From assembly GCA_017413105.1 (NCBI GenBank), contig JAFPVA010000268.1, positions 1-42,556 on the forward strand: a stretch of DNA of 42,556 nucleotides, read 5' to 3'. The first letter of the stretch is position 1; each line of letters opens with the position of its first letter. This document shows positions 4,773 through 34,011 of this stretch, piece by piece. The stretch comes from Butyrivibrio sp. (lineage in GTDB: Bacteria; Bacillota; Clostridia; Lachnospirales; Lachnospiraceae). The translations under genes and the position numbers were made by a program. The notes below the pieces were generated by a model. That model ran no database searches. It saw only the letters and a program-made list of their open reading frames with translations, and was not told the origin of the DNA.

Positions 4773-4777
4773 ATTAA

Positions 4778-12520: not shown

Positions 12521-12545
12521 AAAAAACTTCCTTTCGTTATAAAAC

Positions 12546-13907: not shown

Positions 13908-13972
13908 AATATATCCTCCTATAATGAATAGAATGCTTTGTCATGCCAAAATCACATAAAATATCAAATTAC

Positions 13973-14002: not shown

Positions 14003-14085
14003 TAATTCTTTAAATAGCAGCATTTTCATAGTAAAATCTAATGAGTAAATTCAAAAAAGTTTTGTCGGGGAGATAGTTTTAGTTA

Positions 14086-15148: not shown

Positions 15149-16591
15149 TTACATCATTTTCTTTATTTCATCATATACAAACTGTACCTTAGGTCCAACA
15201 ATTACCTGAACAGTTGTCTTGGAAGGTCTTACCACTCCCGCTATTCCGGCATTCTTTATAACCTTCTCATCTACCTGAGTATAATCATTAACCTCTGCAC
15301 GAACTCTGGTTGCGCAGTAATCGATTTCTTTGATATTGTCTTTTCCTCCAAGGCCCTGAAGAACGAGCTTCGCCATAGAAGTAAAGTCATCGTTTGCAAG
15401 CTGTATCTTGCTCTCTGCTTCTTCGTCATCATCCTCACGTCCGGGAGTCTTAAGATCAAACTTAAGGATTACAAAACGGAATACAAAGTAATAAATAACT
15501 GCATATACAGCACCAACAGGAATAAGGATCCAAGGATTTACTGCCATGGGAGCCTTAAAGCTAAGAACCCAGTCTACGAGACCTGCCGAGAAATTAAATC
15601 CAAGTCTGAACGGAAGAAGTGCACATATAATAGCTGAAATACCTGTAAGTACTGCATGTACAAGGTAAAGACCTGGAGCAAGGAACATGAATGCAAATTC
15701 CAGAGGTTCTGTGATACCGGTAAAAAAGGAAGCAAGCGCACCTGCTATCATAAGAGAAGCAACCGCTTTTTTCTTATTGGGCTTAGCTGTGTGGTACATT
15801 GCAAGAGCTCCGGCAGGAAGACCAAACATCATAACAGGGAAGAATCCTGTCATATACTGACCTGTCACGCCCTTTACTGCGCCTTCTGCTCCGGACCAGA
15901 AAAGTCCCAGATCATTGATATCTGCAGTGTCAAACCAGAATACCGCATTGAGCGCATGATGAAGTCCCAGAGGGATAAGCGCTCTGTTAAGCATTGCGTA
16001 GATACCTGCTCCAACAGCGCCAAGACCAACGATTGATTTACCAAAGGCTACAAGACCTGCGAAGATAAGCGGCCAGATAAAGTAAAGAACAACAGAAGCA
16101 CATACGGAAATAACAGCTGTAACAATCGCAACGCACCGCTTTCCACTAAAGAAAGCAAGCCAGTCAGGCAGCTTCGTATCCCTGAACTTGTTGTAGCAGC
16201 CTGATCCTATAATACCTGCCAGGATACCGATAAAGCAGTTGGAAATCTTTCCAAAGGCTGCAGGAACTTCGGAAGCATCCACGCCTTTGTACATGGCAAC
16301 AGCTCCGGTGCTAAGAAGTGTTGTGATCATCAGGAATGAAACAATACCTGCAAGAGCACTGGTCCCGTCATGATCCTTCGCCATTCCTACTGAAACACCG
16401 ATTGCAAACAGAATAGGCATCTGATCGATTATGGCAGATGCAGCCTTGATCAGAAACGCTGAAACTATATTGTTTGCTCCCCATCCACTTGGATCGATCC
16501 AGTATCCGATACCATACAGAATACCCGCAGCCGGCAAAACAGCTACCGGAAGCATCAAAGACTTACCGATCTTTTGCAAATACTTCATCAT
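15149..16591 (-). CDS. nagE: PTS sugar permease, EIIC-EIIB (glucose/GlcNAc family)
   Basis: Takes up and phosphorylates a sugar using phosphate from EIIA. At 480 residues it has an EIIC membrane domain (1 to about 380) with the family motif GITEPLEF at 292-299, an acidic linker (about 384-398), and an EIIB domain whose phospho-accepting cysteine is C426 in DYCATRVRAEV. Segments such as LGLHHALNAVFWFDTA and the stretch through FPVMMFGLPAGALAMY resemble E. coli NagE more than PtsG, so N-acetylglucosamine is my preferred substrate; glucose is possible. The domain order is IIC-IIB with IIA encoded separately just upstream. A GGAGG lies 9 nt before the ATG at 16591. The transcript ends at the hairpin at 15084-15129. 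Confidence 0.9.
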   Translation of the reverse strand: MMKYLQKIGKSLMLPVAVLPAAGILYGIGYWIDPSGWGANNIVSAFLIKAASAIIDQMPILFAIGVSVGMAKDHDGTSALAGIVSFLMITTLLSTGAVAMYKGVDASEVPAAFGKISNCFIGILAGIIGSGCYNKFRDTKLPDWLAFFSGKRCVAIVTAVISVCASVVLYFIWPLIFAGLVAFGKSIVGLGAVGAGIYAMLNRALIPLGLHHALNAVFWFDTADINDLGLFWSGAEGAVKGVTGQYMTGFFPVMMFGLPAGALAMYHTAKPNKKKAVASLMIAGALASFFTGITEPLEFAFMFLAPGLYLVHAVLTGISAIICALLPFRLGFNFSAGLVDWVLSFKAPMAVNPWILIPVGAVYAVIYYFVFRFVILKFDLKTPGREDDDEEAESKIQLANDDFTSMAKLVLQGLGGKDNIKEIDYCATRVRAEVNDYTQVDEKVIKNAGIAGVVRPSKTTVQVIVGPKVQFVYDEIKKMM

Positions 16592-16641
16592 ACTACTTTT
16601 CCTCCTTTATGTTTTTGTGATAATGAATATAACAATAAAGT

Positions 16642-17124
16642 TCATTTCGACAGAAGGATTGCAGCTTCTCCTGCTGATACATTACCTTCTTTCTTTTCAA
16701 GGTTGGAAAAATCATCCGGATTGGATATGATGATAGGCGTAATGGTATCGTACCCCGCTTCCTTTACGCCATTAAGGTCAACTTCGACAATAAGGTCACC
16801 CTTTTTAACCTCATCTCCCTGTTTTGCATGGATGGTAAAGCATTTTCCCTCAAGTTTAACAGTATCGATTCCTATGTGAATAAGAACCTCAGCCCCTTCG
16901 CTGCTCTTTAAGCAGTAAGCATGTCCTGTTGGGAAAAGAACTGCCAATGTGCCGTCACAGGGCGCATAAAATCTGCCCTCAGAAGGCTTAAGAGCAACGC
17001 CTTTTCCAACCATCTCCTCTGAAAAAGCAGGATCGCTAACATTAGAGATAGGCACAAGTTCGCCTTTTGCAGGCGCGCAGATTTCAATTTTCTTACTTTG
17101 GAATAATTTATCGAATAACCCCAT
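16642..17124 (-). CDS. crr: PTS EIIA component, glucose family
   Basis: Soluble phosphocarrier between HPr and the EIIB domain of the adjacent permease. From the ATG at 17124 it is 160 residues. The phosphorylated histidine is H83 in LIHIGIDTV (E. coli H90 equivalent) and the second active-site histidine is H68 in PTGHAYC. The 17124 start is preferred over a TTG at 17142 because GGGAGG then falls about 9 nt upstream. It precedes the EIICB gene by 50 bp and is likely the first gene of a two-gene operon. I could not identify an antiterminator (RAT) site or a confident promoter in the short AT-rich leader downstream of the mscL terminator. Confidence 0.93.
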   Translation of the reverse strand: MGLFDKLFQSKKIEICAPAKGELVPISNVSDPAFSEEMVGKGVALKPSEGRFYAPCDGTLAVLFPTGHAYCLKSSEGAEVLIHIGIDTVKLEGKCFTIHAKQGDEVKKGDLIVEVDLNGVKEAGYDTITPIIISNPDDFSNLEKKEGNVSAGEAAILLSK

Positions 17125-17210
17125 ATAGAATTTCCTCCCCAATTAACTTTATAAATATTTTACACCATATCTGGTAAATATAGAAACGTATTTTAATATA
17201 TATTGTATTA

Positions 17211-17242
17211 AAAAGATCCCCGGATTTTAATCCAGGGATCTT
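17211..17242 (-). terminator. Intrinsic terminator of mscL
   Basis: On the minus strand, AAGATCCC-GGATT pairs with AATCC-GGGATCTT around a short loop with one mismatch. A run of T follows. It lies about 45 bp past the mscL stop and insulates the PTS operon. Confidence 0.85.
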
Positions 17243-17286
17243 ACTATTATGCTATATTCAATTACATCTAGAAGCGTTAAATATAA

Positions 17287-17769
17287 TCAAAGATCAGATG
17301 TACAACAAGGGCACTTTGTTGCCTCTATGTTGATCTCACTCTTACATTTAGGACAGATCTTAGTTGTTGCAGGAGCCTCTGCCTCTTCCTTAGCAAACTT
17401 CTCGCTTACGTTGTTCATAAACTTGATAAGTAAGAAGATAACCAAAGCCATCAGGATGAAGTTAATAACTACAGTAATGAAAGTACCATAGTTAAGAGTT
17501 GCTGCTCCGGCTTCCTTAGCTGCCTCAAGAGTTGCATAGGAACCGCCATCAAGCACTACAAACTTGTTGTTGAAATCGATTCCCCCGGTAAGAAGACTGA
17601 TAACCGGCATGATAATGTCATCAACAAGAGATGAAATAATTTTCTGGAATGCTCCGCCGACGATAACGCCGACTGCCATATCCATCACATTACCACGCAT
17701 AATGAACTCACGGAACTCTCCGGCAAGGCCCTTTCCCTTACCTGCTACTTTTTTCATTTTCTCTGTCAT
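17287..17769 (-). CDS. mscL: Large-conductance mechanosensitive channel with C-terminal zinc ribbon
   Basis: Emergency osmotic release valve in the cytoplasmic membrane. The N-terminal amphipathic segment and first membrane helix carry the MscL signature (EFREFIMRGNVMDMAVGVIVG at about residues 18-38). The second helix is at about 98-116. At 160 residues it is longer than E. coli MscL (136). The extra C-terminus carries four cysteines (C139, C142, C153, C156) in a CPKC...CPCC pattern, a zinc-ribbon-like tail that other Firmicute MscL proteins also have. It is monocistronic, with its own terminator and a TATAAT -10 at 17850-17855 (minus strand) sharing a gap with the divergent tRNA promoter. 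Confidence 0.96.
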   Translation of the reverse strand: MTEKMKKVAGKGKGLAGEFREFIMRGNVMDMAVGVIVGGAFQKIISSLVDDIIMPVISLLTGGIDFNNKFVVLDGGSYATLEAAKEAGAATLNYGTFITVVINFILMALVIFLLIKFMNNVSEKFAKEEAEAPATTKICPKCKSEINIEATKCPCCTSDL

Positions 17770-17844
17770 TTCCCTGCTTTCTCACAAATTAGATTTGTGT
17801 CCCCAAAAAGTCTGTTGTATGTTACAAAATATGTTATGTTACTC

Positions 17845-17873
17845 TTGAAATTATACCACATATTGTATAAAAT
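17845..17873 (+). promoter_or_regulatory. Predicted promoter of tRNA-Gly
   Basis: A -35 TTGAAA (17845-17850) and a -10 TAAAAT (17868-17873) are 17 nt apart. They place the transcript start near 17880, about 20 nt before the tRNA. The minus strand of the same stretch contains a TATAAT (17850-17855) usable by mscL. Confidence 0.65.
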
Positions 17874-17899
17874 AAAATAGTCGCTTGTACAGAACGTTC

Positions 17900-17970
17900 G
17901 CAGGATTAGTACATCGGTAGTATGTTAGCTTCCCAAGCTGAAGAGGCGGGTTCGATTCCCGTATCCTGCT
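17900..17970 (+). tRNA. tRNA-Gly (anticodon CCC)
   Basis: A full cloverleaf can be drawn. The acceptor GCAGGAT pairs with ATCCTGC plus discriminator T, and the D stem is GTAC/GTAT. The anticodon stem is TTAGC/GCTGA with loop TTCCCAA, which puts CCC at 17932-17934. The T stem GCGGG/CCCGT closes a TTCGATT loop. CCA is not encoded. It should read GGG codons. The 3' end of the gene is part of a larger inverted repeat with sequence about 110 bp downstream. Confidence 0.93.
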
Positions 17971-18124
17971 TAAACCAAGTGATGCAAAAAAGAGAATATA
18001 CTGGCTACCCGCCAAGTTTACTTGAGCGGTAGACAGTATATTCTCTTTTTTATATCGCGCGCCAGCGCGGATTAGGATTGCGTCAGCAATCCTAATATGC
18101 ATCACTTGGTTTAATCAGGATACG
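17960..18124. repeat. 27-bp inverted repeat that includes the tRNA 3' end
   Basis: The left arm 17960-17986 begins inside the tRNA T-arm/acceptor and runs to AAACCAAGTGATGCA. The right arm 18098-18124 is its reverse complement at 26 of 27 positions. The arms enclose a terminator-like hairpin and two more small palindromes. This whole gene-poor stretch (17770-18214) otherwise holds only the tRNA and promoters. Confidence 0.85.
17986..18051. terminator. Strong bidirectional terminator hairpin
   Basis: A perfect 18-bp arm pair runs from AAAAAAGAGAATATACTG (17986-18003) to its complement at 18034-18051. The pairing continues through CTAC and CGC with one bulged base. A6 on one side and T6 on the other let it stop the tRNA transcript (+) and read-through from the solute-binding-protein operon (-). 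Confidence 0.85.
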
Positions 18125-18201
18125 CAGGGGAAAGCACTGCGGCTTGGGATTGCGTAGCAATCGCAAGATGCATCACTTGGCATGAGCAATGCATGTATTG
18201 C
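18056..18201. repeat. Cluster of short palindromes, including two related hairpin-plus-tail units
   Basis: In order: CGCGC/GCGCG (18056-18069); ATTAGGATTGC/GCAATCCTAAT (18071-18096); CGCAG/CTGCG (18123-18141); CTTGGGATTGC/GCAATCGCAAG (18143-18167); GCAAT/ATTGC (18186-18201). The second and fourth are each followed by ATGCATCACTTGG, making two direct copies of a roughly 38-bp unit (18071-18109 and 18143-18180). The block starts just after the solute-binding-protein stop codon on the minus strand. Confidence 0.8.
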
Positions 18202-18214
18202 GGACTTCCTCACA

Positions 18215-20704
18215 TCACGAATTCTCATTCACATAGATTGTAAGCCTACTCTGGATAATATCCGCAACCTCCTTGGCGCTCTTCTGCCCGCTGAAAAATG
18301 CAGATGCTTCCTCAAAGATGATGTTGTTTACACTCTCATTGTAATTACTTACCAGAGTAAGTGATTTAATATAGTTTGTAAGTTCAACCACATCCTCATT
18401 GCTCAGAGGTTTTGCTGTAACTTCCTGACCTCCGACATAGTAGGTATCCTCATACTCAACCTTTTTGTCCCCATCCATATAGTAGAGCTTTTGAGTAGAT
18501 TCCTGTGCCTGCTTCTCAAAGCTTGATTTTCTAACAGGGAAGCAATAATCCAATGTATTCTGATACTCCTCAGAAAGGAATGATTTCAAAAACTCCCAAG
18601 CTGCATCCTTGTACTTGGACTGTGAGCTGATGGCAAGCCTCTCATAAGGCATGATAACAGAGTTATTGATTCCAAACTCGTTTGGATAACCTACAAAAGC
18701 AACATCCTCACCAAACTGTATATCCCTCATATATGAATATGAGCGGAATCCGTTAAGGTTGATAATTGCAAAAAGAGCTTCATTCTCAAGATATAGAGTA
18801 TCCTTATAATCCTCCCATGCACTATCCGGATATTCCTCAGGGAACTTCCCTGCAAATTCCAAAAACTCAATAAATGATTCACTGTCAAAGCTACAGGACT
18901 TATTTTCCCAGTCAATATAGCTGTTTCCTGAATACCTGATTCCCTGCTCAAGGAAACTGTTTCTCGGCATGATTCCAAATGCAGCATCCGTACTCACACC
19001 ATACTTTTCCATCAGATCCTTGCAGTCCTTGAAGGAAAAGACATTCTTGCCTCCGGTAAGGCTTTTCTTTACAGCCATTGAACCCACATAGAAGCCGGGA
19101 ACAAGCTGATATAGCTTATCTCCCGTTCTCAGAGCATCCATGACATTGGTAACAAGTTCCACATTTCCAATATCAGGGTCATTATTGATATAAGTGCTGA
19201 TATCGGCGAAAAGGCCCTTATTTATGTAGCTGTCCACAGGCATCTGGCTTGAAAGCACCATAATATCAGGTGTATTACCGGAAATGATATCCATATTCAT
19301 CTTCTCAACCCCGGCGCCATATTCACCGTTATCGTCATAGCTGGAGTAATCAACAAATTTTATCTTGTATTCAGTGTTGTTCTTGTTAAATTCAAAGGCC
19401 TGTCTTCTTACATCATAATCGATGTAGTAACCGCCCATTGTAAGGATTTTCTTTTCCTTGACCTGATCTGCCGGAATCTTGGTCAGTCTTGCTACATACA
19501 TTTTATATTCCGCATCAGGTAAAAGAGCTACAAATTCCGCATCACTTATCGCAGTAAATAGATTTGTGGAAGATGTCATCTCGATATCTGAATCAACGAA
19601 ATCAAGGAGCTTTGTGGATTCCTCTTTAGCAAAGTCAATTCCGTAAATACCATCGTTTTTACACATATAGAGGTCATAGCCGTTTCCACCAAAAAATGAG
19701 GCGTCGGTATAACCTGTTACAACGGAGGATGGATCACCTATTTTTCCCGTTTCAGGGTCAAAACTGCAAAGTTCAATGCCCTTTTCACCATAGCTCTGAA
19801 CATAGAGCTTATTTCCAAAGCCCTTATAGAGCTGATAATAGCGATAATCATTATTATCCTTAAGGTCAACTAATGTCTTAAAACCAGTCTCCTCATCGTA
19901 TCTGAAAATTCCCTGGTCTATGCTGAGTATGAGCTTCCCATCATCTGTTATAACGAGGCCATTGGCGGATATGTAATTGTCCTCGTTTGGAAATTCTTTT
20001 AACAGATCAAGCTTATACTGTAAATTTCCATTGGCATCAAACTTTACGAGATAGACCTCATCGTTCTCACTCTCATCCATCATGCCTTCGTTTTCAGCGT
20101 CAGTGGAATCTACAGTCTCTTCAGCTTCAGAAGCTTCCAGTTCATCTGCGGTTGCAAGAGTCTCTGTGCCTTCGAGATTTTCCTCTTTTACCTCTTCCTC
20201 TTTTACATCTTCCTCTTTTGTCTCGGCTTCTTTATCTGTAGAATCTTTATCTTCAGCCTCGATCATTTCACCGTTTTCATTTTCATAGATATGCATATCC
20301 TCGTCTTCATAGGACCAGTGATATACATAGTAGATTCCATAAATATTTCCGTCCTTATCATAAGAAATATAGGAATAATTCTCGTTATCAGAAGTATTTA
20401 ATTTAGTGTTTCTAATGTCACTACCATCAGAATTAAAAGAGAATATGTTAATATATCCATCACCGCCATAGGTACTCGCATATACCTTATCTCCGGCATA
20501 CTGAATTCTGGAAAAATCAGAATCCTTGTCAATATCCAGAAGTTCCATGGCAAATACATAATCCTTGGAATTCTTAGCAGCCTTATCTACAAGGCTTTCC
20601 TTATCTCCGCTTTGCTTGCCGCAGCCGGATATAGCGCCTGCAGTAAGCGCCATGGCCAAAAAGCAGGATAAAACTCTTTTTACCATTCCTCTCTTCATTT
20701 TCAT
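18215..20704 (-). CDS. Lipoprotein: beta-propeller-like region fused to ABC sugar-binding protein
   Basis: The 829-residue product has a signal peptide and lipobox ISGC (Cys28). Residues about 47-410 show repeating short strands with D-G/N turns (YDKDGNIYGIYY, TDDGKLILSIDQ, NGYDLYMCKNDGIYGID), suggesting a beta-propeller. This part is interrupted at about 130-215 by an acidic Glu/Lys-rich insert. From about 415 to the end it resembles an extracellular solute-binding protein (COG1653-like), with ILTMGGYYIDYDVRRQAFEFNK and SGNTPDIMVLSS. Ordinary binding proteins of this class are 400-550 residues. It is the last gene of the operon with sugar permeases and a MacA/MacB-like pair, and probably delivers a ligand to those permeases. 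The ATG at 20704 has GAGAGGAG 5 nt upstream. The ligand is unknown. Confidence 0.85.
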   Translation of the reverse strand: MKMKRGMVKRVLSCFLAMALTAGAISGCGKQSGDKESLVDKAAKNSKDYVFAMELLDIDKDSDFSRIQYAGDKVYASTYGGDGYINIFSFNSDGSDIRNTKLNTSDNENYSYISYDKDGNIYGIYYVYHWSYEDEDMHIYENENGEMIEAEDKDSTDKEAETKEEDVKEEEVKEENLEGTETLATADELEASEAEETVDSTDAENEGMMDESENDEVYLVKFDANGNLQYKLDLLKEFPNEDNYISANGLVITDDGKLILSIDQGIFRYDEETGFKTLVDLKDNNDYRYYQLYKGFGNKLYVQSYGEKGIELCSFDPETGKIGDPSSVVTGYTDASFFGGNGYDLYMCKNDGIYGIDFAKEESTKLLDFVDSDIEMTSSTNLFTAISDAEFVALLPDAEYKMYVARLTKIPADQVKEKKILTMGGYYIDYDVRRQAFEFNKNNTEYKIKFVDYSSYDDNGEYGAGVEKMNMDIISGNTPDIMVLSSQMPVDSYINKGLFADISTYINNDPDIGNVELVTNVMDALRTGDKLYQLVPGFYVGSMAVKKSLTGGKNVFSFKDCKDLMEKYGVSTDAAFGIMPRNSFLEQGIRYSGNSYIDWENKSCSFDSESFIEFLEFAGKFPEEYPDSAWEDYKDTLYLENEALFAIINLNGFRSYSYMRDIQFGEDVAFVGYPNEFGINNSVIMPYERLAISSQSKYKDAAWEFLKSFLSEEYQNTLDYCFPVRKSSFEKQAQESTQKLYYMDGDKKVEYEDTYYVGGQEVTAKPLSNEDVVELTNYIKSLTLVSNYNESVNNIIFEEASAFFSGQKSAKEVADIIQSRLTIYVNENS

Positions 20705-20723
20705 AATATCTCCTCTCGACTAC

Positions 20724-21935
20724 TTATTTCTGTTTAAGCAATTTTCTTTTTGCTTCAAAATCATATTTTTTATCTGCCAGATAATACGCTATACCTCTGA
20801 CTGTCCAGGTCTTGTTTCGGTAAGCAATTACTATCATAACAGCTACTATCATAAAAATGGCAACTCTGCATATCATCCGGATCAGCCATAGCCTTCCCAG
20901 AATATCCTCCCAGCCTCTTGCAACATTCTCCCAGTAGGGATAAAAAATCGGCTGTGTCCACATACTCCTGATGCCAAAATCAAGGACTACAGATAAAAGT
21001 GACATTCCGTCAAATCTTTTGGTATTGTCTACAGAAGAGATATACTTTTCTTCTCTTCCTGAGCTTTCCCTTACAAGCCTTAAAGCAAGGCCGTCAACAG
21101 GATCCGGCATTACCACTTCATAGCAGTTTATTCCGCCGCTCTGCATTTTCTGCCCATCTTCAGACACTTCTACTTCGCTGACCCTTCCGCTAAGGATAGT
21201 TCCGTATTTGGCAAGAGAATCGTAGGACATATAAACAGTGCTTTTGGAGAGACCCGCAGCCACATTAAAACGTCCCTCTGCTCTTTTTACAACGCCGCAG
21301 ATATAGTGATTTACGCCACCAATTGTGACACACTCACCGATAATATCGTTTGAGCCAAAGAGCTGCCATGCAAAGTCCTCATCTACAACGATCCTGTCCT
21401 TCATCAGATCGTCCGCGCCAAAATATGCTCCCGAAATTATTTCCAATGGATGGAACAGGAAAAAATCACCTCCAACACCTATAGTATCGATGTTTTCAGC
21501 TTTTCGGTTTTCATAAATAACTGTGCTGATCCCCTGGGCGCTGTAGCAGCTGTCATAAAGCTTTATTTCCTCAGTCACTAAAGTGCTGTCCTCTACAACA
21601 TTTTCGCCGTTTTTATTTACAGGAACCGTATCTACTATCCGGTCATTATCATCATCGTCATCCTGCAAAATTCCGGCTTCCTGCATCTTTTTTTCAAGAC
21701 TGTACTCAAGTTTCTTTATATCATCAGAAGTGATCATCTGATCTTCAGTAAAAAACAGACTGATCTGAGCACATTTCTCGTCCCCCTGCCACCTTTCAGC
21801 CGCATGCTGATCAGGAAGCTTTTCGATAAAATGATTACTCAAAGCCATAAAGCCAAGATCCAGAAGTAATAAAGCTGCAACGATAATAAGCGCTATATTT
21901 CTTTTTTTATTTGAAAAGAATCTCTTAAAATTCAT
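20724..21935 (-). CDS. MacB_PCD-like membrane protein lacking the full FtsX permease domain
   Basis: The 403-residue protein has one N-terminal membrane helix (about 13-33) and a large extracytoplasmic domain with MacB periplasmic-core features (DRIVVDEDFAWQLFG, IIGECVTIGGVNHYICGVV). One hydrophobic segment follows near the C-terminus (about 357-375). MacB/FtsX permeases normally have one helix before and three after this domain. Here two are missing and there is no nucleotide-binding domain. It also contains a short poly-Asp stretch (DDDDDN). Its ATG overlaps the stop of the MacA-like gene by one base (TAATG), so the two are translationally coupled and likely form a complex. It may be a structural partner rather than a transporter. 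Confidence 0.75.
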   Translation of the reverse strand: MNFKRFFSNKKRNIALIIVAALLLLDLGFMALSNHFIEKLPDQHAAERWQGDEKCAQISLFFTEDQMITSDDIKKLEYSLEKKMQEAGILQDDDDDNDRIVDTVPVNKNGENVVEDSTLVTEEIKLYDSCYSAQGISTVIYENRKAENIDTIGVGGDFFLFHPLEIISGAYFGADDLMKDRIVVDEDFAWQLFGSNDIIGECVTIGGVNHYICGVVKRAEGRFNVAAGLSKSTVYMSYDSLAKYGTILSGRVSEVEVSEDGQKMQSGGINCYEVVMPDPVDGLALRLVRESSGREEKYISSVDNTKRFDGMSLLSVVLDFGIRSMWTQPIFYPYWENVARGWEDILGRLWLIRMICRVAIFMIVAVMIVIAYRNKTWTVRGIAYYLADKKYDFEAKRKLLKQK

Positions 21936-23521
21936 TACTGGTTTGCAAGCCTCACCTGATCCCCTGGATTTACAGGTTTATTAGAAGTAGTAATAACATA
22001 TTCATCCCCATTCAGGGCTGCCGTAATGGCTGTGTAGTTGTCGTCAGAGGCAAGAACACTGACTTCAACGTTTGATGTGATATATCTGTTTCCCAATGGG
22101 CTGGACTTACTGTTTACCACAAGGAGATACTTGCCGGTAGAGCTGGTCTTTATAGCACTGTTTGGCACAACCATGTCATAATCAACAGATCTCTCTCCTA
22201 TTGCCAGCGAAATATTCTGTCCGGGAGTTACTTCCCTGCTCTCTATCTTGAAAGTAAGGACCTTTTTACCTGCCGGATCTGTCTTGTCGTTTTTGATTGA
22301 TGTAAGGGTTGCTTTAAAATCATTACTGAACATCCAGGCATTCTGAGGCTTTGCAGCATCTCCCACCTTGAGCTTCTGGGCCTGGGCGTTGGTTACGGAA
22401 AAGCTTGTTGTCATATCTTTTCCATCTATCTGGATAACTGCCACTGTCTCATCCGCTGATACAGATTCCCCTGCAGCCTTTGACAGACTTGATACTATTC
22501 CGGCAACCGGTGACTTTATTGAAGCACCAACGGAAGCTTCCTCAAGCTCTTTTATCTTTTCTCTCTGTTTTGCAATCTTGTCCCTTGTATCGCACAAAGA
22601 TATCTCAGTCTTAATCGAAGTGATGATTTCCGTCTTATCCTTCTCAGCTTCCTCAAGTTCCTTTTTGGCCTTGGTCTCATTTTCTTTTGCCTCAAGGAGC
22701 TGCTGATCATAGCTGGTTTTTACCTGACTGGAATAAGTTGATAATTCCTTGGTTTCCCTGCTATTTTCATTCTTTATCTGTTGCCAGTACTTCTTGGCGT
22801 CATTTTTCTCTTCTTCAGTCATGGTCTTGCTGTTGTCTATGACTGTTATCTGATAGTCAGCCAGAGCATCCTCATAGCTATAGGTGTCCTTGTTGTAGCT
22901 GATCTCATTGGTGTCCCTTGACTGAAGCTTTGTCAGATATTCAGTGGTCTTTGTGGCAGCATCTGCTACAGCCTTTGCAGCATCATATCTGTCATTGGCT
23001 TCCTTAAGCTTTATCTGATAAGCATCATAGCTTATAGTTCCGCCGCTTCTTACTCTTGAGATAACATCATCAGGAATATCTCCGGAAAAAAGAGTCTGCT
23101 CGTAGGAAAGTTCCATATCATCGAGTTTTTCTCTTGCTGTTTTAAGCTCCTCCGATTCATTATCCTCAAGGTAATAGATTACATCTCCAATATCAACGTG
23201 AGATCCCTCTTTTACTGCCACACCGGAAATCTTCCTGGTCTCCTTAACAGTTACGTTATAAGGATCTTCCGCTGTAACAGTGCCTGTTCCTCTTATCTGA
23301 GGGCTTATGGAGCCGCTCTGTATTCTCTGGGTTGCAACCTGTGGCAGAGAATAATTCATGATAGTATTGGAAAAGAAAGTAAGAAGAAGCATCACTGACA
23401 AAAATGCAATTGCAACATTTTTTATCATGTCCTTTTTATCAACAGGCTTCTTGCCATCCTTCATTAAATTATTTCCGTTACTACCAACTACTTCAATCTC
23501 AGTTTCAAATAAATCTGACAT
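21935..23521 (-). CDS. MacA/HlyD-type membrane-fusion adaptor
   Basis: A 528-residue protein with one N-terminal membrane helix (about 36-55) and no lipobox. The first half of the lipoyl/barrel-sandwich domain follows (GTGTVTAEDPYNVTVKETRK, VKEGSHVDIGDVIYYLEDN). A long alpha-helical coiled-coil hairpin spans about 125-345. The second lipoyl half (GASIKSPVAGIVSSLSKAAG) and beta-barrel domains complete the adaptor. In MacAB-type exporters such adaptors link a permease to outer layers. In Gram-positives they act with FtsX-type permeases. Here the neighbour downstream is the MacB_PCD-like protein, coupled through TAATG, and the genes upstream are sugar permeases, which is an unusual mix. Confidence 0.87.
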   Translation of the reverse strand: MSDLFETEIEVVGSNGNNLMKDGKKPVDKKDMIKNVAIAFLSVMLLLTFFSNTIMNYSLPQVATQRIQSGSISPQIRGTGTVTAEDPYNVTVKETRKISGVAVKEGSHVDIGDVIYYLEDNESEELKTAREKLDDMELSYEQTLFSGDIPDDVISRVRSGGTISYDAYQIKLKEANDRYDAAKAVADAATKTTEYLTKLQSRDTNEISYNKDTYSYEDALADYQITVIDNSKTMTEEEKNDAKKYWQQIKNENSRETKELSTYSSQVKTSYDQQLLEAKENETKAKKELEEAEKDKTEIITSIKTEISLCDTRDKIAKQREKIKELEEASVGASIKSPVAGIVSSLSKAAGESVSADETVAVIQIDGKDMTTSFSVTNAQAQKLKVGDAAKPQNAWMFSNDFKATLTSIKNDKTDPAGKKVLTFKIESREVTPGQNISLAIGERSVDYDMVVPNSAIKTSSTGKYLLVVNSKSSPLGNRYITSNVEVSVLASDDNYTAITAALNGDEYVITTSNKPVNPGDQVRLANQ

Positions 23522-23554
23522 CTCCCTTTTACTCCCGTTAAAACAAAAATTTTT

Positions 23555-24481
23555 TCACCCCTTGATACCACCCTGGTAAGATATTCCCTCCACCAGATAA
23601 TCCTCCCCATAAAGGAATATCAATAGAGGCGGTACCAGATATATCACAGCCACCGCAAAGGCAAGGCTGATTTCCCCTGCATTGATCTTGGACAAAAATA
23701 CAGAGAGCGGATGCATATCCGAATCCGGCAAAAGAATCAGCGGCTGCTCTACCATATTCCAATAATCAAAAAATACAAGAATTGCTATAGATGCAATACC
23801 ACCCTTGCAAAGCGGCATACATACCCTCGAAAAAATGTACCATTCATTGGCTCCGTCTATTGAGGCAGCCTCCATTACCTCTGTGGGTATCCTTCTCATG
23901 AACTTGGTAAGAAGATATACCGCAAAGGGCGAAAACATTCCCGGAAGCCATATTGCCCATCTGGTGCCATATATTCCTATTGCCTTTGAAACCAGGAAAT
24001 TAGGTACAAGAGTTACCTGATATGGCATAAGCATCATTATGATATATGCGAAAAAAATGGCATTTTTAACTCTCGAACTGTATCGTGCAAAGCCATAGGA
24101 AGCCAGTGTAGCAATAAGGAGCTGAACAGCAACTATAGGTCCCACATAAATTACTGAGTTCCAAAATTTGAACAGATACTCAGGGCTTTTAAAGAGTACC
24201 GTAAAGTACTGGGAGAAGCTTACCATATCAGGAATGAACTTAAGGTTCACAGTCTTTGAAACAAAGACTTTTCCGCCCTCCTTGGTAGTTGCAAAAATGC
24301 TCCCGTAATTCGCATTTATCTCAGCTGCCGACATGAAGGAATTGGTTATGGTCAGCACCGTTGGTAAAAGAAATATTGCTGCAAAGACAATAGCTGCAAA
24401 TGTAACAATGCTGGTCTTTATAATATCTAATCTGTGTTTGCGCCTAAGTAGACGCTCTTTTACTTTTGTCTGCATTCTCAT
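23555..24481 (-). CDS. Sugar ABC transporter permease, MalG type
   Basis: A 308-residue inner membrane permease of the binding-protein-dependent carbohydrate family. About six hydrophobic segments are visible. The cytoplasmic EAA loop, which docks the ATPase, reads EAASIDGANEWYIFSRVCMP around residues 203-222. The ATG at 24481 has GAGGG 9 nt upstream. It begins 5 bp after the end of the MalF-type permease, with which it should form the membrane channel. No MsmX/UgpC-type sugar ATPase is encoded nearby. Such ATPases are often shared and encoded elsewhere, so the energy source is inferred only. Confidence 0.92.
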   Translation of the reverse strand: MRMQTKVKERLLRRKHRLDIIKTSIVTFAAIVFAAIFLLPTVLTITNSFMSAAEINANYGSIFATTKEGGKVFVSKTVNLKFIPDMVSFSQYFTVLFKSPEYLFKFWNSVIYVGPIVAVQLLIATLASYGFARYSSRVKNAIFFAYIIMMLMPYQVTLVPNFLVSKAIGIYGTRWAIWLPGMFSPFAVYLLTKFMRRIPTEVMEAASIDGANEWYIFSRVCMPLCKGGIASIAILVFFDYWNMVEQPLILLPDSDMHPLSVFLSKINAGEISLAFAVAVIYLVPPLLIFLYGEDYLVEGISYQGGIKG

Positions 24482-24486
24482 AAATA

Positions 24487-25344
24487 TCAGCCCTCAACAT
24501 CCCTTCCGAAGAAATTCTCAACTGCATACATGGCATAGACTAGAATTGTAACTACTATGAACATGATGATAGCCGCTGAGGAGAGCTTCTGGTAATCAAG
24601 TGAAGCAAAGGTATTATTCATGAAATGCTGCAGCATATATAAGGTTGAGTAAGGATAATCTCCACTCATAAGATAAACCTCCCTGAATACTTTGAAGGAG
24701 CTTATAAGTGACATTATCGCTACAAACAAAATTGTGGATGAAAGATATCTCACCTTCACCATCCAGAATATCTGGAATTTATTGGCATTTTCCAGGGCTG
24801 CCACCTCTAAAAGATCCTTTGGAATGCTTGCCAGAGCCGCCATAAAAAGAATCATGTTGTAGCCAAGGTTCTTCCATAGAAAAAGCGCCAATATAACTAC
24901 GCAGGCCTTATCCGACTTAAGGAAATCTATTTTATCGCCGCCAAAAAACATCCTTATGTTATTGATGATACCGTTGTAATGAAACATTACCTGCCAGATA
25001 AGTACCACAGAAGCCGTAGGAACCATCAAAGGGCTTAAGAAAAACGTCCTGAAATAGCTCTTAAAGGGAATTCTGGATTCCATAACTGCCGCCAGAAAAA
25101 GTGATAACATAACCGCAAGAGGCACCGCCAAAACCGAAAAGATCAGCGTGTTGGATGCTGCCAGTTTAAATGCGGAATTATTCCAAACATTTATATAATT
25201 GGTAAGCCCAACAAACTCCTGCTGGATCGGATTGTTAATCAGGGAATAATATATGACCACCCCAAAAGGCGCCACAAAAAACAGAATTACCCCCAAAAAT
25301 GATGGCAAAAGAAAAAGCCAGGAAATCAGCTTTCTCTTTCTCAT
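24487..25344 (-). CDS. Sugar ABC transporter permease, MalF type
   Basis: A 285-residue permease from the ATG at 25344 (MRKRKLISWLFLLPSF). It has about six hydrophobic segments and an EAA-type loop, LLEVAALENANKFQIFWMVK. It pairs with the MalG-type permease and the binding lipoprotein. The frame is open upstream to 25449, but that extension overlaps the previous gene and has no ribosome site. The chosen ATG also lacks a clear Shine-Dalgarno. The nearest AAGGA (25389-25393) is 44 nt upstream, inside the previous gene's end, and 5 nt before an ATT codon in this frame. Translation by coupling or from a non-standard start is possible. Confidence 0.85.
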   Translation of the reverse strand: MRKRKLISWLFLLPSFLGVILFFVAPFGVVIYYSLINNPIQQEFVGLTNYINVWNNSAFKLAASNTLIFSVLAVPLAVMLSLFLAAVMESRIPFKSYFRTFFLSPLMVPTASVVLIWQVMFHYNGIINNIRMFFGGDKIDFLKSDKACVVILALFLWKNLGYNMILFMAALASIPKDLLEVAALENANKFQIFWMVKVRYLSSTILFVAIMSLISSFKVFREVYLMSGDYPYSTLYMLQHFMNNTFASLDYQKLSSAAIIMFIVVTILVYAMYAVENFFGRDVEG

Positions 25345-25375
25345 GCTATTAAATTTTGCTTTTTTAAATGAATTA

Positions 25376-27562
25376 TTAATTGGTATCCTTGATGACAAAT
25401 TCAGGTACCTTCCCCAACAAAAAATCGTAATATACAGTGGTAGTGCCATACTGGTCTATAGGCTTTGTCGACTTGATCTCTACGCTGTACTGCTGATCAA
25501 AGTAACCCTGATAATCAAACCACTGTCCGTAAAATCCATTCTCGCTGGTATTTGCAAGAATTTCTTCTATCTTATCAATATCTGTGTATTCTTTTTCCTT
25601 GCTCTCGATATCCATATCATACAGTTCTGTCTTGTCTATGGCAGAAATATCTATTCCCGGATATCGATTGATGACACTAATACTCTCAATACATTCTACA
25701 TCCAAAGTGTTCTCGGAATAAATACCATATTTTTTAAGAACTTCAATTGTATTGGTAAAAGACTCATATACATTCATCCTGTATTCAGCATAAGTTGAAA
25801 TAAAACCATCTGAGTCCTTACGTTCTACAGAATAATCAATCTGACCTATAGGAAGATTATTATTTGCCATTTCAAAGGTGTATTTTTCCAGTATATCTTT
25901 TCTGTAGGCATCACTTAGCTCACTGTAAGGCAGCTCTTTTGTATCATTATAGGCTGTAGAAGTTGTATATGAAGCGTTTCTGGTATAAGCATTTTTGTCT
26001 GCTTCTCTTATCTCATCGTCAAAGAATACGGCAAAAAAGCCTTTTTTGTATTCCTCTGAATCCACTATGGATGACATAAGCTTTTTATCCACATCGTAAG
26101 GAATTGTAATCTTTCTATATACGTCTTTTCCATTAGTCAGCCTGTATCTGATGTTTATGTCACTCCATCCCATATCATAATATTCATTATTTCTGTTGTG
26201 CTTTACGTATTCCTTCTGGGCCTTCATGCCAATTTCAGCAAGTTTGGAAAAGCTTGCCACATCAGTTATCTCCATATGCTCATCTGAAATATCCAGATAT
26301 TCATAATCGATCATATAGGAATAATCGCCGTTTGTTATAGCACAGCTCTTTACCTTAGCAGCATTCGGAATATAGCTGTCATATCCAAGAAGGTCTCCCT
26401 TAAAAATCACGAATATAAGAGCAACCACAGCAAGTGCCATCAGTGTCTGCGCTTTGCCAGAAAAAACTTTCTTTATATTGCTGTCAAGAATTGCCTCGAT
26501 AACACATCCGCATATAACCGTTGAAAGAAGCATTATCGCAAACATCAGGCCAAAGAGCCTGTCATTCCAGGCATAGTCGTAGACTGCATAAACGACATAT
26601 CCGGCAGCAAGGCCTACAATAACACAGCCTGTTATCTTAACTATCCACCTGAAGGGCCTGTAAACTATAGTCTGTCCTGCGTGTTCTGCTCTTCTGAATC
26701 TGCTAAAGATTACCACCAGTATTAAAGCCACAATACCTGTTATAAGAGTATCGACAGTTCCCGGAATAACCGCAGCAAGCGACTTCTTAAAGCCCGCAAA
26801 ATCCCAATAATATCCTACTTTATCGGTCATATTCTTAAGGTCAAAGAACAGTCCGAACCTGTCGTAGAGAGGTGACGCTATGATTCCGATTTTTTCATTG
26901 TAAGCAAAGGTTGCGTAAAAAATCCCTTTAAAACTATACAGTTCAAAACCAAGAACCAAAGAAACAAACATAAAGAACAGAACCACTAAAAGCGCTATAG
27001 GAAAGGTTCCACTGAGAAGTATCGCCAAAAGGGTTATGTTATAAACAGTAAAATAAAGGATTATATTTCTTACCATCTCAGCTAGAGCCGTGGCAAGAAT
27101 AACATCATTGACTCCGCCCATTGCCGCTGCAATTATTAGTGCCAGTGCCTCAATAATTACGTACATAATGATGTATGTGGAAAAAGCCTTGAAATAATTT
27201 CTCCAAAGTCTCTGAGCCCTTGTGGTGGGCTGACTCATGTAGAAGTCCAGCTGTTTTTGATCAAACACATAGGCAAATCCCTGAAAAGCAAAAGCAATGG
27301 CAATGAAAAATGTGATAACAAAACCAATCTGTTCAAAGCCTAAGACCCTGCCTACAGCATTTAGCTTGTAGTGATGAAGTACCTCTGCCGACTGACTATA
27401 GAGCATTGAGTAGTTCACGCTTCTTGATATCAGCATGATCACACCGAGGATGTAATAAACCGCCATCAGAAGGAATCCAATAATGGAAGTCCAAAGGGTC
27501 CTTGTGATGTATTTTTTATGATTACCCATTTTCTCACTGAAGGATAAACTTTTTGATGTCAT
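25376..27562 (-). CDS. ABC-2-type permease with DUF6449-like extracytoplasmic C-terminus
   Basis: A 728-residue protein. The N-terminal half has many hydrophobic segments typical of ABC-2/YtrC-like permeases, including the family feature FAYVFDQKQLDFYMSQPTTR (about residues 97-116). The C-terminal third is hydrophilic, with repeated Tyr/Asp-rich strands that I associate with DUF6449. The ATG at 27562 has GGAGG 9 nt upstream and overlaps the ATPase gene by 29 bp. A second ATG at 27529 has a weaker site. It should be the membrane partner of the YtrB-type ATPase encoded just upstream. The export or import direction cannot be told from sequence. Confidence 0.85.
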   Translation of the reverse strand: MTSKSLSFSEKMGNHKKYITRTLWTSIIGFLLMAVYYILGVIMLISRSVNYSMLYSQSAEVLHHYKLNAVGRVLGFEQIGFVITFFIAIAFAFQGFAYVFDQKQLDFYMSQPTTRAQRLWRNYFKAFSTYIIMYVIIEALALIIAAAMGGVNDVILATALAEMVRNIILYFTVYNITLLAILLSGTFPIALLVVLFFMFVSLVLGFELYSFKGIFYATFAYNEKIGIIASPLYDRFGLFFDLKNMTDKVGYYWDFAGFKKSLAAVIPGTVDTLITGIVALILVVIFSRFRRAEHAGQTIVYRPFRWIVKITGCVIVGLAAGYVVYAVYDYAWNDRLFGLMFAIMLLSTVICGCVIEAILDSNIKKVFSGKAQTLMALAVVALIFVIFKGDLLGYDSYIPNAAKVKSCAITNGDYSYMIDYEYLDISDEHMEITDVASFSKLAEIGMKAQKEYVKHNRNNEYYDMGWSDINIRYRLTNGKDVYRKITIPYDVDKKLMSSIVDSEEYKKGFFAVFFDDEIREADKNAYTRNASYTTSTAYNDTKELPYSELSDAYRKDILEKYTFEMANNNLPIGQIDYSVERKDSDGFISTYAEYRMNVYESFTNTIEVLKKYGIYSENTLDVECIESISVINRYPGIDISAIDKTELYDMDIESKEKEYTDIDKIEEILANTSENGFYGQWFDYQGYFDQQYSVEIKSTKPIDQYGTTTVYYDFLLGKVPEFVIKDTN

Positions 27563-28439
27563 ACCCCACTACCTCCGTTTCACTTATAAATATCTCCTCC
27601 AGAGAAAGAGGAAGCACCTCAAAGAAGATGGGATTTCCCATCTTAAAGGCTCTCTCAACGTCTTCCCTGTCCCCTCTCATGGTTATGGTATGGAGTCTTC
27701 CCCTGGTCTCATGTATAAGAACTTCCATGCCATCTATAGCCTTATCCACATCTTCATCATTCGCAAAGACACACTGAACCTTCTGCATCTTAAGCTTCAT
27801 GTCAGATAAATCCTCAGAAAGTATCACACCTCCCTGATGAAGAAGACCGATGTGATCACATATATCCTCAAGTTCCCTTAAGTTGTGGGAAGCTATAACC
27901 GGTGTCAGACCTCTGTCTGCCATCTCTCCTGCCATAAGACTCTTTACTCCCTGTCTCACCACAGGATCAAGACCATCAAAGGTCTCATCACAAAGAATAA
28001 ACTTTGTTCCTGCGCAGATTCCAAGGAGAATTGCCACCTGCTTTTTCATGCCCTTGGAAAAAGAGCTTATTCTCCTCTTTACATCAAGTCCAAAGCCGCT
28101 GCACAGCTTGTAAAACTTCAGCTTGTCAAATTTCTCATAAACTTCTTCGAAGTAATCTGCCATTTCTTCCGGAGTTGAATTGGGAAGAAAATACTGATCA
28201 TCCGAAATAAAGAAAATGTCTTTTTTCACATCCGGATTGTCATACACAGGTCTTCCATCCACACAGACTACTCCATCGTCAGGTTTTACTACACCTGAAA
28301 TGATCCTGAGCAGTGTGCTCTTGCCTGCTCCGTTTGTCCCAACCAGACCGAATACTTCACCATCACGTATTGATAATGAAACATGATTGACTGCCTTTAT
28401 GTCATCGAAATTCTTGTTAAGTTCCAATAATTCAATCAT
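27534..28439 (-). CDS. ABC transporter ATPase, YtrB-like
   Basis: A 301-residue nucleotide-binding subunit. Walker A is GTNGAGKS (34-41), the signature is FSKGMKKQ (127-134, the variant usual in YtrB-type proteins), Walker B is FILCDE (147-152), and the switch histidine is H185 in ASHN. The C-terminal 80 residues form the extra domain of ABC-2-type ATPases. It overlaps the repressor gene by 4 bp (ATGA) and the permease gene by 29 bp, so all three are tightly coupled. It probably powers the DUF6449-type permease. Whether it can also energise the MalFG-type pair is doubtful, since those normally use MsmX-type ATPases. Confidence 0.93.
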   Translation of the reverse strand: MIELLELNKNFDDIKAVNHVSLSIRDGEVFGLVGTNGAGKSTLLRIISGVVKPDDGVVCVDGRPVYDNPDVKKDIFFISDDQYFLPNSTPEEMADYFEEVYEKFDKLKFYKLCSGFGLDVKRRISSFSKGMKKQVAILLGICAGTKFILCDETFDGLDPVVRQGVKSLMAGEMADRGLTPVIASHNLRELEDICDHIGLLHQGGVILSEDLSDMKLKMQKVQCVFANDEDVDKAIDGMEVLIHETRGRLHTITMRGDREDVERAFKMGNPIFFEVLPLSLEEIFISETEVVGYDIKKFILQ

Positions 28440-28840
28440 GCCCTTCCTCCCATATCAAACTTATCACTCTCAATATTCAGATTATTAACTTCGTTTTTTA
28501 TCTCCTCAAGGATTTCCCCTACCGGAATTCCAATATCTTCGGCCTCCTTAAGAAGTTCAATGATTGCGCAAATAAGTTCCCTCCTCTTATTATCAATCAT
28601 TGCTGTATTGTTCTTAACAAAGTTTCCCCTGCCTTTTACCGTATAGATGAACCCCTGCCTTTCCAGTTCTGCATAGGCCTTCTGTACAGTATTAGGATTT
28701 GTTGACAGCTCAATAGCCAGGCTTCTTACCGACGGCATCTGTTCATCCGCCCTCAGAATCCCCTTTAGTATCTGCAATTTGAAATTTTCGACAATCTGCT
28801 CATAAATAGGCCGGCTGTCATGATAATCGATAATATTCAT
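28436..28840 (-). CDS. GntR-family repressor, YtrA subfamily
   Basis: A 134-residue regulator with an N-terminal winged helix-turn-helix (about 1-70), including PSVRSLAIELSTNPNTVQKA and ERQGFIYTVKGRGNFV. Only a short helical tail follows, as in the YtrA subfamily, which lacks a large ligand domain. It is the first gene of an operon of ABC components, typical of YtrA-type regulators. A perfect palindrome lies between its promoter -10 and its start codon, so autorepression is very likely. Its stop overlaps the ATPase start (ATGA). The inducer is unknown. Confidence 0.93.
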   Translation of the reverse strand: MNIIDYHDSRPIYEQIVENFKLQILKGILRADEQMPSVRSLAIELSTNPNTVQKAYAELERQGFIYTVKGRGNFVKNNTAMIDNKRRELICAIIELLKEAEDIGIPVGEILEEIKNEVNNLNIESDKFDMGGRA

Positions 28841-28849: not shown

Positions 28850-28880
28850 CTAAGTGTACTACCCATGTTAGTACACTTAG
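28850..28880. promoter_or_regulatory. Palindromic operator of the YtrA-like repressor
   Basis: Perfect 12-bp arms CTAAGTGTACTA and TAGTACACTTAG with a 7-bp spacer. The core can be read as AGTGTA-N13-TACACT. It directly abuts the -10 element and covers the likely transcription start, so binding would block initiation. Confidence 0.85.
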
Positions 28881-31845: not shown

Positions 31846-34011
31846 CTACTTCCAATATACTTCGATTTTGTCGCCCTCTTTTATGGGCTGCATATAATCC
31901 GGTGTAGAGCCATTGAGTGTAGTCACTATAGCCCTGCCGTTTGGCTTGGAAAGATCAAAATCAATAGCATCAAAAATATCTACGAAAATATAATCTGCTT
32001 TGCCGTGAAGTGTCACGGATTCATTGTTAACTATTACATGAAGGTCATGGGCTAAGATATTTCTTATGGGAGCAGGTTCCTCTTCATAAGCCCCATCATC
32101 CTCCGGAAGGTCATCTAACGAAAGCTGCCCATCTTTTCCCTCTACAAATCTGACATCCTCATCCGAGCTCTCATAGGACTCCTCATTAGCCTGAGATATT
32201 TCCATCTCATCAGCATCAGGAAAATCTTTATAATAGTCCATTATAGCTTCTTCCTGATCCTTGAATTCTATCTTGAAATTCTCATAAACAGGAGTGTTGA
32301 CGTCACCTCTCTCGTTGTTAACGATGATCACAGTATCTTCTGTGATAGTGATATCCATAAGCTCAGCTATCTGTGCCGCTGTGTTGTAATCAAGGACCTT
32401 GACCTCATCACCGGGTTTAATGCTGTAAAAACCGGTCTGAGCTTCGCCGTTAACTGTAGCGTATCTGGAAGCCTCCACATTCTTGCCGTTAACATTGACA
32501 CTAAACTTGGTCTTAAACTCCGGAATGCTCTCGATTGTAGCTTTTCCGGGATTTCCGGCTGTCGAAGGAGTGACATTTATGATATCGTTGGCATGGATCT
32601 TGGAGTGGATATCAGCAGGATGCCCATTAAGCTGGATAACAGCGGCCTCACCGGGTTCTCCCCTGGATGTTCTCTCCTTTCCATTAACTGTGTACTTAAG
32701 TTCCTGCCCTCTCTTCGGGAAAAGATCTTCATTCGGAAAAGCAACCTGCATGGCCGCATCTACAATCTGAAGCTTGCCATTATCATAGAGCTTAGTCTGA
32801 GTTCCGTTAAAGGAAACAAAGATAAAGTTGTTGGCTTCCTCGTAATAGCTAAAGCAGATACCAAGAGGTGTAACTAGAAGTGAATCCTTCTCAATTCCGT
32901 TGTTATTAAGGAAAGTAATATCCTTCATAACCTCTTCACCTCGAAGAGCAACTCTCTCCTCAGGAAGATCCATCTCTTTTGCTATAGCCTGTGTATATCC
33001 GGGCACGCATCCACCGCCACCGACAACAAATACAGCGCTTACAGGTTTATCACCATTAAGGCGTCTTATCTCTCCTGCAGCCTTTGTAGCCATTTCATCA
33101 ACCTTGGGCTTAATGATCTTCGCTATTTCCTCGGCAGTTATGCATTTATTAAGGCCCATGATATCAACATAATCAACCTTATCCTCATGGCTTGCCCTGA
33201 TCTTTATCTCATCTGCTGTATTAAAATCTACCAGACAATTTTTAGCTATTATTTCTGTGATATCGTCTCCGGCAATCGGGAGCATACCATAGGCTGTAAT
33301 GGAGCCATCATCTGTAACACATATATCTGAGGTTCCTGCTCCAACATCCACCAGAGCAAGATTGAGCATTCTGAATTTATCCGGAATAGCAACCATCATA
33401 GCTGCAATAGGCTCCAGTGTAAGATTGGCAACATTAAGACCGGCTCTTTCGCAGGCCTTATAAAGACCATCAACACAGTCATCCGGAAGGAAGGTTGCAA
33501 TAAGCTCTACACTTACTTTTCCGGCATTATGTCCCTCCAGGTTTGCAATCTGATAGCCATCCAGATAGTAATGCATTACTGAATAGCCAACCAGGTAGAA
33601 CTTGAGCCCCGAAGTATTTTTTTCTATAAATTCAGCATAGGCTTTCTCAACTGCCGCTGAATCCAGATTATAAATATCCTCATCCGTAATGGTATGGCCA
33701 TCAGGATATTCATAATCATAACTGACCCTTACTGTCTTAAGGACACGACCCGCTGCAGCAATACAGACATCCGTCAGATGAATATCCGTCTGCTGTTCCA
33801 GATTATCCTTTACAATGCGGATGGTCATGGCAACTTTTCCGATGTCATGAATCTGTCCATCCAGCATGGCTCTCGTCTGGTGAGTCTCAATTGACTGGGC
33901 AATTACATTAAACTGTCCATCATTCATGTAGCCCACAGTTCCAACAACACTTCTGGTTCCAATATCCAGACCAAAAACTACCTTTTGCTGCGCTTGCTCC
34001 AAACTAGGCAT
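31846..34011 (-). CDS. FtsA-like ATPase with beta-grasp-like C-terminal repeats
   Basis: A 721-residue protein. Residues 1 to about 390 follow the actin/Hsp70 fold of FtsA/PilM. The phosphate-1 motif GLDIGTRSVVG is at 14-24, phosphate-2 VDVGAGTSDI at 221-230, and the adenosine motif VVGGGGCVPG at 329-338. FtsA itself is about 420 residues. The extra 330 residues contain three segments of the form NG-x-P/A...I-x-x-G/N-D-x-I-x-V (about 459-480, 518-540, 698-718) and an acidic linker (585-650). No membrane-targeting amphipathic tail like FtsA's is visible. The start at 34011 has GTGGAG 5 nt upstream and overlaps coaE by 8 bp. I would not call it the cell-division ftsA. Confidence 0.85.
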   Translation of the reverse strand: MPSLEQAQQKVVFGLDIGTRSVVGTVGYMNDGQFNVIAQSIETHQTRAMLDGQIHDIGKVAMTIRIVKDNLEQQTDIHLTDVCIAAAGRVLKTVRVSYDYEYPDGHTITDEDIYNLDSAAVEKAYAEFIEKNTSGLKFYLVGYSVMHYYLDGYQIANLEGHNAGKVSVELIATFLPDDCVDGLYKACERAGLNVANLTLEPIAAMMVAIPDKFRMLNLALVDVGAGTSDICVTDDGSITAYGMLPIAGDDITEIIAKNCLVDFNTADEIKIRASHEDKVDYVDIMGLNKCITAEEIAKIIKPKVDEMATKAAGEIRRLNGDKPVSAVFVVGGGGCVPGYTQAIAKEMDLPEERVALRGEEVMKDITFLNNNGIEKDSLLVTPLGICFSYYEEANNFIFVSFNGTQTKLYDNGKLQIVDAAMQVAFPNEDLFPKRGQELKYTVNGKERTSRGEPGEAAVIQLNGHPADIHSKIHANDIINVTPSTAGNPGKATIESIPEFKTKFSVNVNGKNVEASRYATVNGEAQTGFYSIKPGDEVKVLDYNTAAQIAELMDITITEDTVIIVNNERGDVNTPVYENFKIEFKDQEEAIMDYYKDFPDADEMEISQANEESYESSDEDVRFVEGKDGQLSLDDLPEDDGAYEEEPAPIRNILAHDLHVIVNNESVTLHGKADYIFVDIFDAIDFDLSKPNGRAIVTTLNGSTPDYMQPIKEGDKIEVYWK

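Follow-up and report, generated by a model that had tools for sequence, protein, structure and literature searches.

A conserved gene block joining MalFG-type permeases to MacA/MacB-like proteins in Butyrivibrio, with a separable YtrA-type cassette ahead of it

A contig of 42,556 nt (JAFPVA010000268.1) from a draft genome of Butyrivibrio sp. (GCA_017413105.1; 4.45 Mb, 94.9% complete, 7.28% contamination), the whole of which is referred to here as the window, carries eight open reading frames (ORFs) on the minus strand (nt 18215 – 28840) in which the permeases of a sugar-type ATP-binding cassette (ABC) importer adjoin MacA- and MacB-like proteins (Table 1). That the eight genes are tightly packed on one strand had been stated in a preliminary description of the locus and is borne out by the ORF layout and by Pfam families, with the matches of all eight proteins exceeding the Pfam cut-offs. 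The couplings it listed are likewise present at the junctions: ATGA (4-bp overlap) between gntR and the ATPase gene, a 29-bp overlap between the ATPase and DUF6449 genes, and TAATG (-1) between the genes for the adaptor and the MacB core. The other intergenic gaps are 5–33 bp when the MalF start is taken at nt 25344; this start is ambiguous (nt 25344 or 25449), and no clear ribosome site lies ahead of nt 25344. Beyond the last gene, a terminator-like hairpin is followed by a tRNA-Gly gene on the opposite strand.

Table 1. Features of the eight-gene set and its borders in the window.
Feature	Position (nt)	Strand	Evidence and remarks
YtrA operator AGTGTA-N13-TACACT	28853..28877	-	just upstream of gntR
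GntR-family YtrA-type regulator, 134 aa	28436..28840	-	PF00392 48.9 bits; best NCBIfam PmtR 81.8 bits (cut-off 200)
ABC ATPase, ABC-2 exporter type, 301 aa	27534..28439	-	PF00005 ABC_tran 84 bits; best NCBIfam PmtA 131.7 bits (cut-off 350)
DUF6449 membrane permease, 728 aa	25376..27562	-	PF20047 40.9 bits
MalF-type importer permease, 285 aa	24487..25344 (start 25344 or 25449)	-	PF00528 45.3 bits; UgpA 92 bits; derived EAA loop
MalG-type importer permease, 308 aa	23555..24481	-	PF00528 BPD_transp_1 46 bits; GlcU 96 bits; EAA loop kept
MacA/HlyD-like adaptor, 528 aa	21935..23521	-	PF13437 HlyD_3 34.7 bits; RND_mfp 84 bits (cut-off 94.9)
Free-standing MacB periplasmic core protein, 403 aa	20724..21935	-	MacB_PCD PF12704 37.9 bits; hydropathy; PDB matches
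Solute-binding lipoprotein, 829 aa	18215..20704	-	SBP_bac_1 PF01547 44.4 bits at 438-715; PDB CbpC 7x0o E 7e-18
Terminator-like hairpin and U-run, 3' of last gene	17985..18052	-	-37.2 kcal/mol, z -11.4

Five of the eight genes, those for the lipoprotein, MalF, MalG, the adaptor and the lone MacB core, form a conserved unit (the block). Loci of relatives (designated L, and genomes G) were read as surroundings of about 20 kb, families were called by Pfam and NCBIfam profiles, and a six-frame reading served as a recheck in 12 loci and then in five more. Among 200 genomes of the family (own genome included; threshold E<=1e-20 for core and adaptor) the core protein was found in the own genome plus 20 of the 200 (39/200 at E<=1e-3), and the adaptor in the own genome, the identical 20 and one genome of the divergent group. 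The MalG type of the window (56–73% identity; next best <=44%) also occurs in the own genome plus 20 of the 200, with 19 shared with the core protein; the two exceptions lie at contig ends, where G100 starts inside the adaptor gene and G147 ends 255 bp past malG. The order MalF-MalG-adaptor-core is kept in 18/18 family loci of other genera that have upstream DNA, a count that leaves aside two more which start inside the adaptor gene at a contig end. When malG was taken as the anchor (20 loci: G147 plus 19 from a set of 31 weaker hits with 35–44% identity), profiles detected MalF in 20, the adaptor in 18 and the core in 14; L044 has one additional core by a weak Pfam match, while L039 and L043 are interrupted by contig ends.

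Across the phylum, eight of 398 sampled genomes gave a match, the own genome and one of the same genus included, and profiles recover MalF, MalG, the adaptor and the core in all seven loci of the six out-of-family genomes. Loci L060–L065 come from three other families; L066 has a different gene order and a core match of only 20 bits. A plasmid of Subdoligranulum variabile, deposited without annotation (OY725868.1), carries all five block genes (core 27 bits). Ordinary importer genes are not so accompanied: 20 own-genome regions with 21 further MalFG pairs contain neither adaptor nor core. This genome has 75 BPD_transp_1 matches and adaptor matches at three places only (the window, a canonical MacA with an ATPase and two MacB genes on another contig, and one short fragment). 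The combination of MalFG with MacA/MacB-like proteins was not found in the literature searched, nor was a paper on DUF6449; the search was limited to open-licence papers, and hits were surprisingly few for such general words.

The three upstream genes behave differently. The GntR-ATPase-DUF6449 cassette is a separable module, and its union with the core block is a genus-level addition. All eight genes are present in the seven named or same-genus loci first collected (L013–L018 and L059, with gntR of L016 visible in the six-frame reading only), and a tree groups the genus loci (0.996), a topology that fits a single gain of the cassette with later losses as well as several gains. Within 79 same-genus genomes, own included, the core protein occurs in 73 and DUF6449 in 68; the two are joined in 42 (41 and the own genome), with DUF6449 and core 3.4–4.2 kb apart on one strand. 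They lie apart in 24, two of which (DUF6449 45–47% identical) look like contig breaks, and the remainder have the core only (7/79), DUF6449 only (2/79) or neither (4/79). Free-standing cassettes were present in each of the eight 'apart' genomes that were read, with no MalFG in the 13 kb covered. In L145 and L146 (about nt 4275 – 12000) the cassette lies away from MalFG and is followed by two genes, one for an Mbeg1-like protein and one for a lipoprotein of the window's solute-binding type.

Twenty further same-genus loci include three with the cassette and 17 lacking it, and in 12 of the latter (L122–L130, L138–L140) the block occupies the same chromosomal site as in the window, with the insert missing. 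This site is recognised by homologues of the four genes preceding the window set, in the same order: DUF711 (73–87% identical), an ACT-type protein, a metallo-hydrolase-like protein and an FtsA-like protein. The cassette is present at this site in the window, L013, L014, L015, L137 and L141; blocks at other sites either lack it (L131–L135) or have it (L136, L059). A 730-aa protein encoded at nt 31846 – 34038 of the window gives weak FtsA/MreB/PilM-like matches, and its homologues precede same-genus blocks with and without the cassette. Outside the genus, the DUF6449 cassette is absent from all 18 family loci with readable upstream DNA. The preliminary description had taken the eight genes as one unit. 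Comparison of neighbourhoods upholds this for MalFG, adaptor and core, which stay together across genera and families with few divergent exceptions, and not for the cassette, which is lacking in the other-genus loci and at the 12 shared sites and stands alone in the free-standing copies. The surprising joint is that of an importer with Mac parts rather than the eight-gene set.

The MacB core protein has one transmembrane (TM) region at either end in 26/26 close relatives by hydropathy, and divergent core proteins mostly have extra TM segments. When its profile was compared with the PDB, only MacB and YknZ proteins matched, save one chance-level hit. Matches to canonical MacB (own genome and L019) end at the core in all three groups, and the FtsX family was not found in the Pfam matches of the members scanned. 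No MacB-type ATPase is encoded in the window, nor among the block genes of the loci mapped. The adaptor, whose profile has MacA among its PDB matches, has a single N-terminal TM helix with the near-invariant run LTFFSNTIMNYSLPxV. This signature recurs in L060, is slightly altered in L062–L065 and degenerate in the divergent group. The canonical MacA of L019 lacks it, and that of the own genome is cut off ahead of the corresponding stretch in the locus read. The adjacency and order of a MacA-like adaptor and a MacB periplasmic core resemble the MacA-MacB and B. subtilis YknXYZ efflux systems. Unlike these, the core protein of the window lacks both a fused ATPase and a recognisable FtsX domain, the block has no MacB-type ATPase gene of its own and adjoins MalFG, and the adaptor bears the distinct TM signature. 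Canonical sets do occur in the same organisms: in the own genome (G000, contig C67, nt 15657 – 20500) an ATPase, MacA and two MacB genes offer a natural comparison for the motorless core protein, and in one genus the block has an ATPase-MacA-MacB set immediately downstream (L019, nt 10366 – 14836).

The C-terminal part of the lipoprotein resembles CbpC (PDB 7x0o, its closest solved relative) and Lmo0181, and the protein carries an extra N-terminal domain. The lipoprotein had been described as propeller-fused, which could not be verified: Pfam and PDB searches gave no significant match for the N-terminal 400 residues, and a self-profile comparison, built on only seven similar sequences, detected no internal repeats. 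CbpC is the solute-binding protein of transporter C of C. thermocellum, which shares sugar-type permeases with the block, and its operon (Cthe_2125-2128) could encode the same system. Reports on its ligands conflict. In PMC9601137, CbpC bound none of the tested sugars and its pocket is described as blocked; an earlier study reported binding of cellodextrins. In L054 (nt 6105 – 10300) a solute-binding protein gene lies between malF and malG.

The block shares with type-I carbohydrate importers (MalEFGK2, UgpBAEC) the MalF and MalG families, their EAA coupling loops and an SBP_bac_1 lipoprotein. The loop is canonical in MalG; in MalF of the close group it is altered, which is a difference from those importers, as are the two conserved membrane-anchored outer proteins and flanks mostly unlike sugar-utilisation loci. 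A MalK/UgpC ATPase gene, a further likeness, comes after the core gene in six of the seven distant-family loci (L060–L065). Three of these ATPases carry OB_MalK and TOBE_2 and score 466–504 bits (NCBIfam cut-off 432), and the remaining three are 73–93% identical to one of them. No such gene is found in the window by ORF list and Pfam. The best UgpC match of the own genome scores 390 bits and is interrupted by a contig end, with a 94.5-bit N-terminal piece on another contig; no BPD_transp_1 permease match was found on either contig. PMC9601137 describes a stand-alone ATPase of the MalK kind for transporter B of C. thermocellum. The ABC-2-type ATPase of the window most likely serves the DUF6449 permease and not MalFG, because it is of the PmtA-like exporter type and travels with DUF6449. 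MalFG are most likely powered by a putative MalK-type partner encoded elsewhere in the genome. With an in-operon MalK-type ATPase in relatives and UgpC-like ATPases elsewhere in the own genome, the puzzle raised earlier, of one ATPase for several permease types, is mostly dissolved.

The regulator was correctly described as YtrA-type, as it belongs to the GntR family and the palindrome AGTGTA-N13-TACACT upstream of its gene, a single copy in the 4.45-Mb genome, is identical to the B. subtilis YtrA operator as quoted in PMC8060467. The exact operator is found in three cassette loci of the genus (window, L059 and L136), and a variant palindrome, judged by eye in the upstream DNA, in L013, L014, L015, L017, L018, L137 and L141. 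According to PMC8060467, expression of ytr in B. subtilis reports glycopeptide and lipid II-binding antibiotics, and its overexpression accompanies a thicker wall. The cassette resembles B. subtilis YtrGABCDEF and Pmt (phenol-soluble modulin export) in having a GntR regulator, an ABC-2-type ATPase and a permease. It differs in having one DUF6449 permease and no second ATPase like YtrE; the MacB core of the window is part of the other module, without an FtsX-like portion such as is reported for YtrF. Among the candidate functions, an anti-phage role was rejected: PADLOC matched the ATPase alone, to ATPase-type models.

Genes for an OmpR-type response regulator and kinase lie near 12/20 divergent and 4/7 distant loci, compared with 0/20 control regions, which hold other kinase types. 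In L062 malF is immediately preceded by a D-Ala-D-Ala carboxypeptidase gene (Peptidase_S11; nt 11418 – 12485), and two-component genes lie close by. Among the best 25 families listed, the flanks of close-group loci (64 proteins) hold chiefly housekeeping families, and those of ordinary MalFG loci in the own genome (65 proteins) LacI, AraC, GH88, GH35 and alpha-amylase, with others; one GH10 was met among the flank families. A sugar-utilisation locus was not favoured, since the flanking families among these best 25 are unlike those of ordinary MalFG loci.

We favour, with moderate confidence, the interpretation that the block encodes a type-I ABC importer that carries a MacA/MacB-like outer assembly, draws its power from a shared MalK-type ATPase encoded in trans and serves the cell envelope. 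MalF and MalG would provide the pore through the membrane and the coupling site. The adaptor and the motorless MacB core would sit in the membrane beside them and form the outer assembly, on which the solute-binding lipoprotein may dock. A MalK/UgpC-type ATPase, encoded in trans here and in-operon in some relatives, would drive MalFG, and in many species of the genus the YtrA-type cassette ahead of the core genes would place them under a cell-wall-stress switch. The substrate taken up or handled would more likely come from the envelope (a glycan, a muropeptide or a lipid-linked precursor) than be a sugar for feeding. We infer subunit contact, ATPase partner, import direction, stress control and envelope role from gene families and conservation. 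A more specific form of this interpretation, put forward tentatively, is that the ATP cycle of the importer is coupled to a wall-spanning MacA/MacB-like conduit, through which envelope molecules that are large or lipid-linked would be guided from the lipoprotein at the surface to MalFG.

Several observations weigh against the importer with an outer assembly. Conserved gene order is not proof of subunit contact, and the MalF coupling loop is altered in the very group to which the window belongs. L056, rechecked in six frames, has neither a clear adaptor nor a clear core, and in L046 and L054 an adaptor is present and the core was not found despite ample downstream DNA. The set anchored on malG leaves 12 of the 31 weaker hits outside it and includes three loci (L040–L042) that were picked in the knowledge of weak core hits nearby. 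The YtrA operator sits at gntR, and read-through from there into the core genes is presumed. The OmpR-type two-component genes are found near just 1/20 close other-genus loci and 0/7 same-genus loci, and the flank families compared are the best 25 of 81 and the best 25 of 73, so that single glycosidases may be hidden. In three close relatives (L016–L018) an alpha-amylase gene comes right after the lipoprotein gene, and glycan feeding is possible there; that of L017 has CBM26 starch-binding modules by Pfam, and its homologues in L016 and L018 are about 95% identical. An envelope role is nevertheless ranked as the likeliest and glycan uptake second, because the YtrA operator, the two-component genes, the carboxypeptidase of L062 and the flanks are set against the amylase of L016–L018 and the disputed ligand binding of CbpC.

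The strongest competitor is an ordinary importer of dietary glycans, in which adaptor and core would serve as accessory scaffolding, keeping the lipoprotein in place or extending through the wall. It would account for the carbohydrate-type families of MalF, MalG and the solute-binding protein, for the resemblance of the latter to CbpC and Lmo0181, and for the adjoining amylase gene. We consider it rather unlikely, as the LacI, AraC and glycosidase genes of ordinary MalFG loci are not among the best 25 flank families listed for the block, and CbpC bound no tested sugar in the study cited above, with a blocked pocket, though the earlier one reported binding. Still less probable is a pump working outwards, with MalFG as the motor of a MacA/MacB-like outer assembly that removes antibiotics or peptides upon cell-wall stress. 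The adaptor and MacB core are indeed efflux parts, and the YtrA-type operator recalls the antibiotic-responsive ytr expression of B. subtilis reported in PMC8060467; however, type-I importer permeases, EAA loops and a solute-binding protein point inward, and no FtsX part, by which MacB is coupled to its ATPase, can be recognised in the core protein. We give little credence to a signalling complex, whose ABC parts would detect a ligand outside the cell and signal to an adjacent two-component system while transporting little, since the OmpR-type genes that suggest it in the divergent and distant loci are nearly missing from the close other-genus ones, and the window has a GntR regulator instead. 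Least probable of all is the earlier proposal of one envelope machine of eight proteins, which tight gene coupling and the joint locus in 42/79 same-genus genomes would favour, but within the genus cassette and core occur apart, and none of the other-genus core loci read has the cassette.

ABC importers are usually pictured as a binding protein, a pore and an ATPase. If the conduit version of the importer with an outer assembly were true, the block would represent a new ABC architecture, an importer-side counterpart of MacAB in which the MacB ectodomain is reused without its own motor. The locus supplies a testable gene set, an adaptor signature and a YtrA-type switch for its study. It also calls for caution, as family searches label the parts of the block separately, as sugar permease and as efflux adaptor. 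The retention of the block over many genera suggests that Gram-positive anaerobes may use outer conduits for import or for maintaining the envelope as well.

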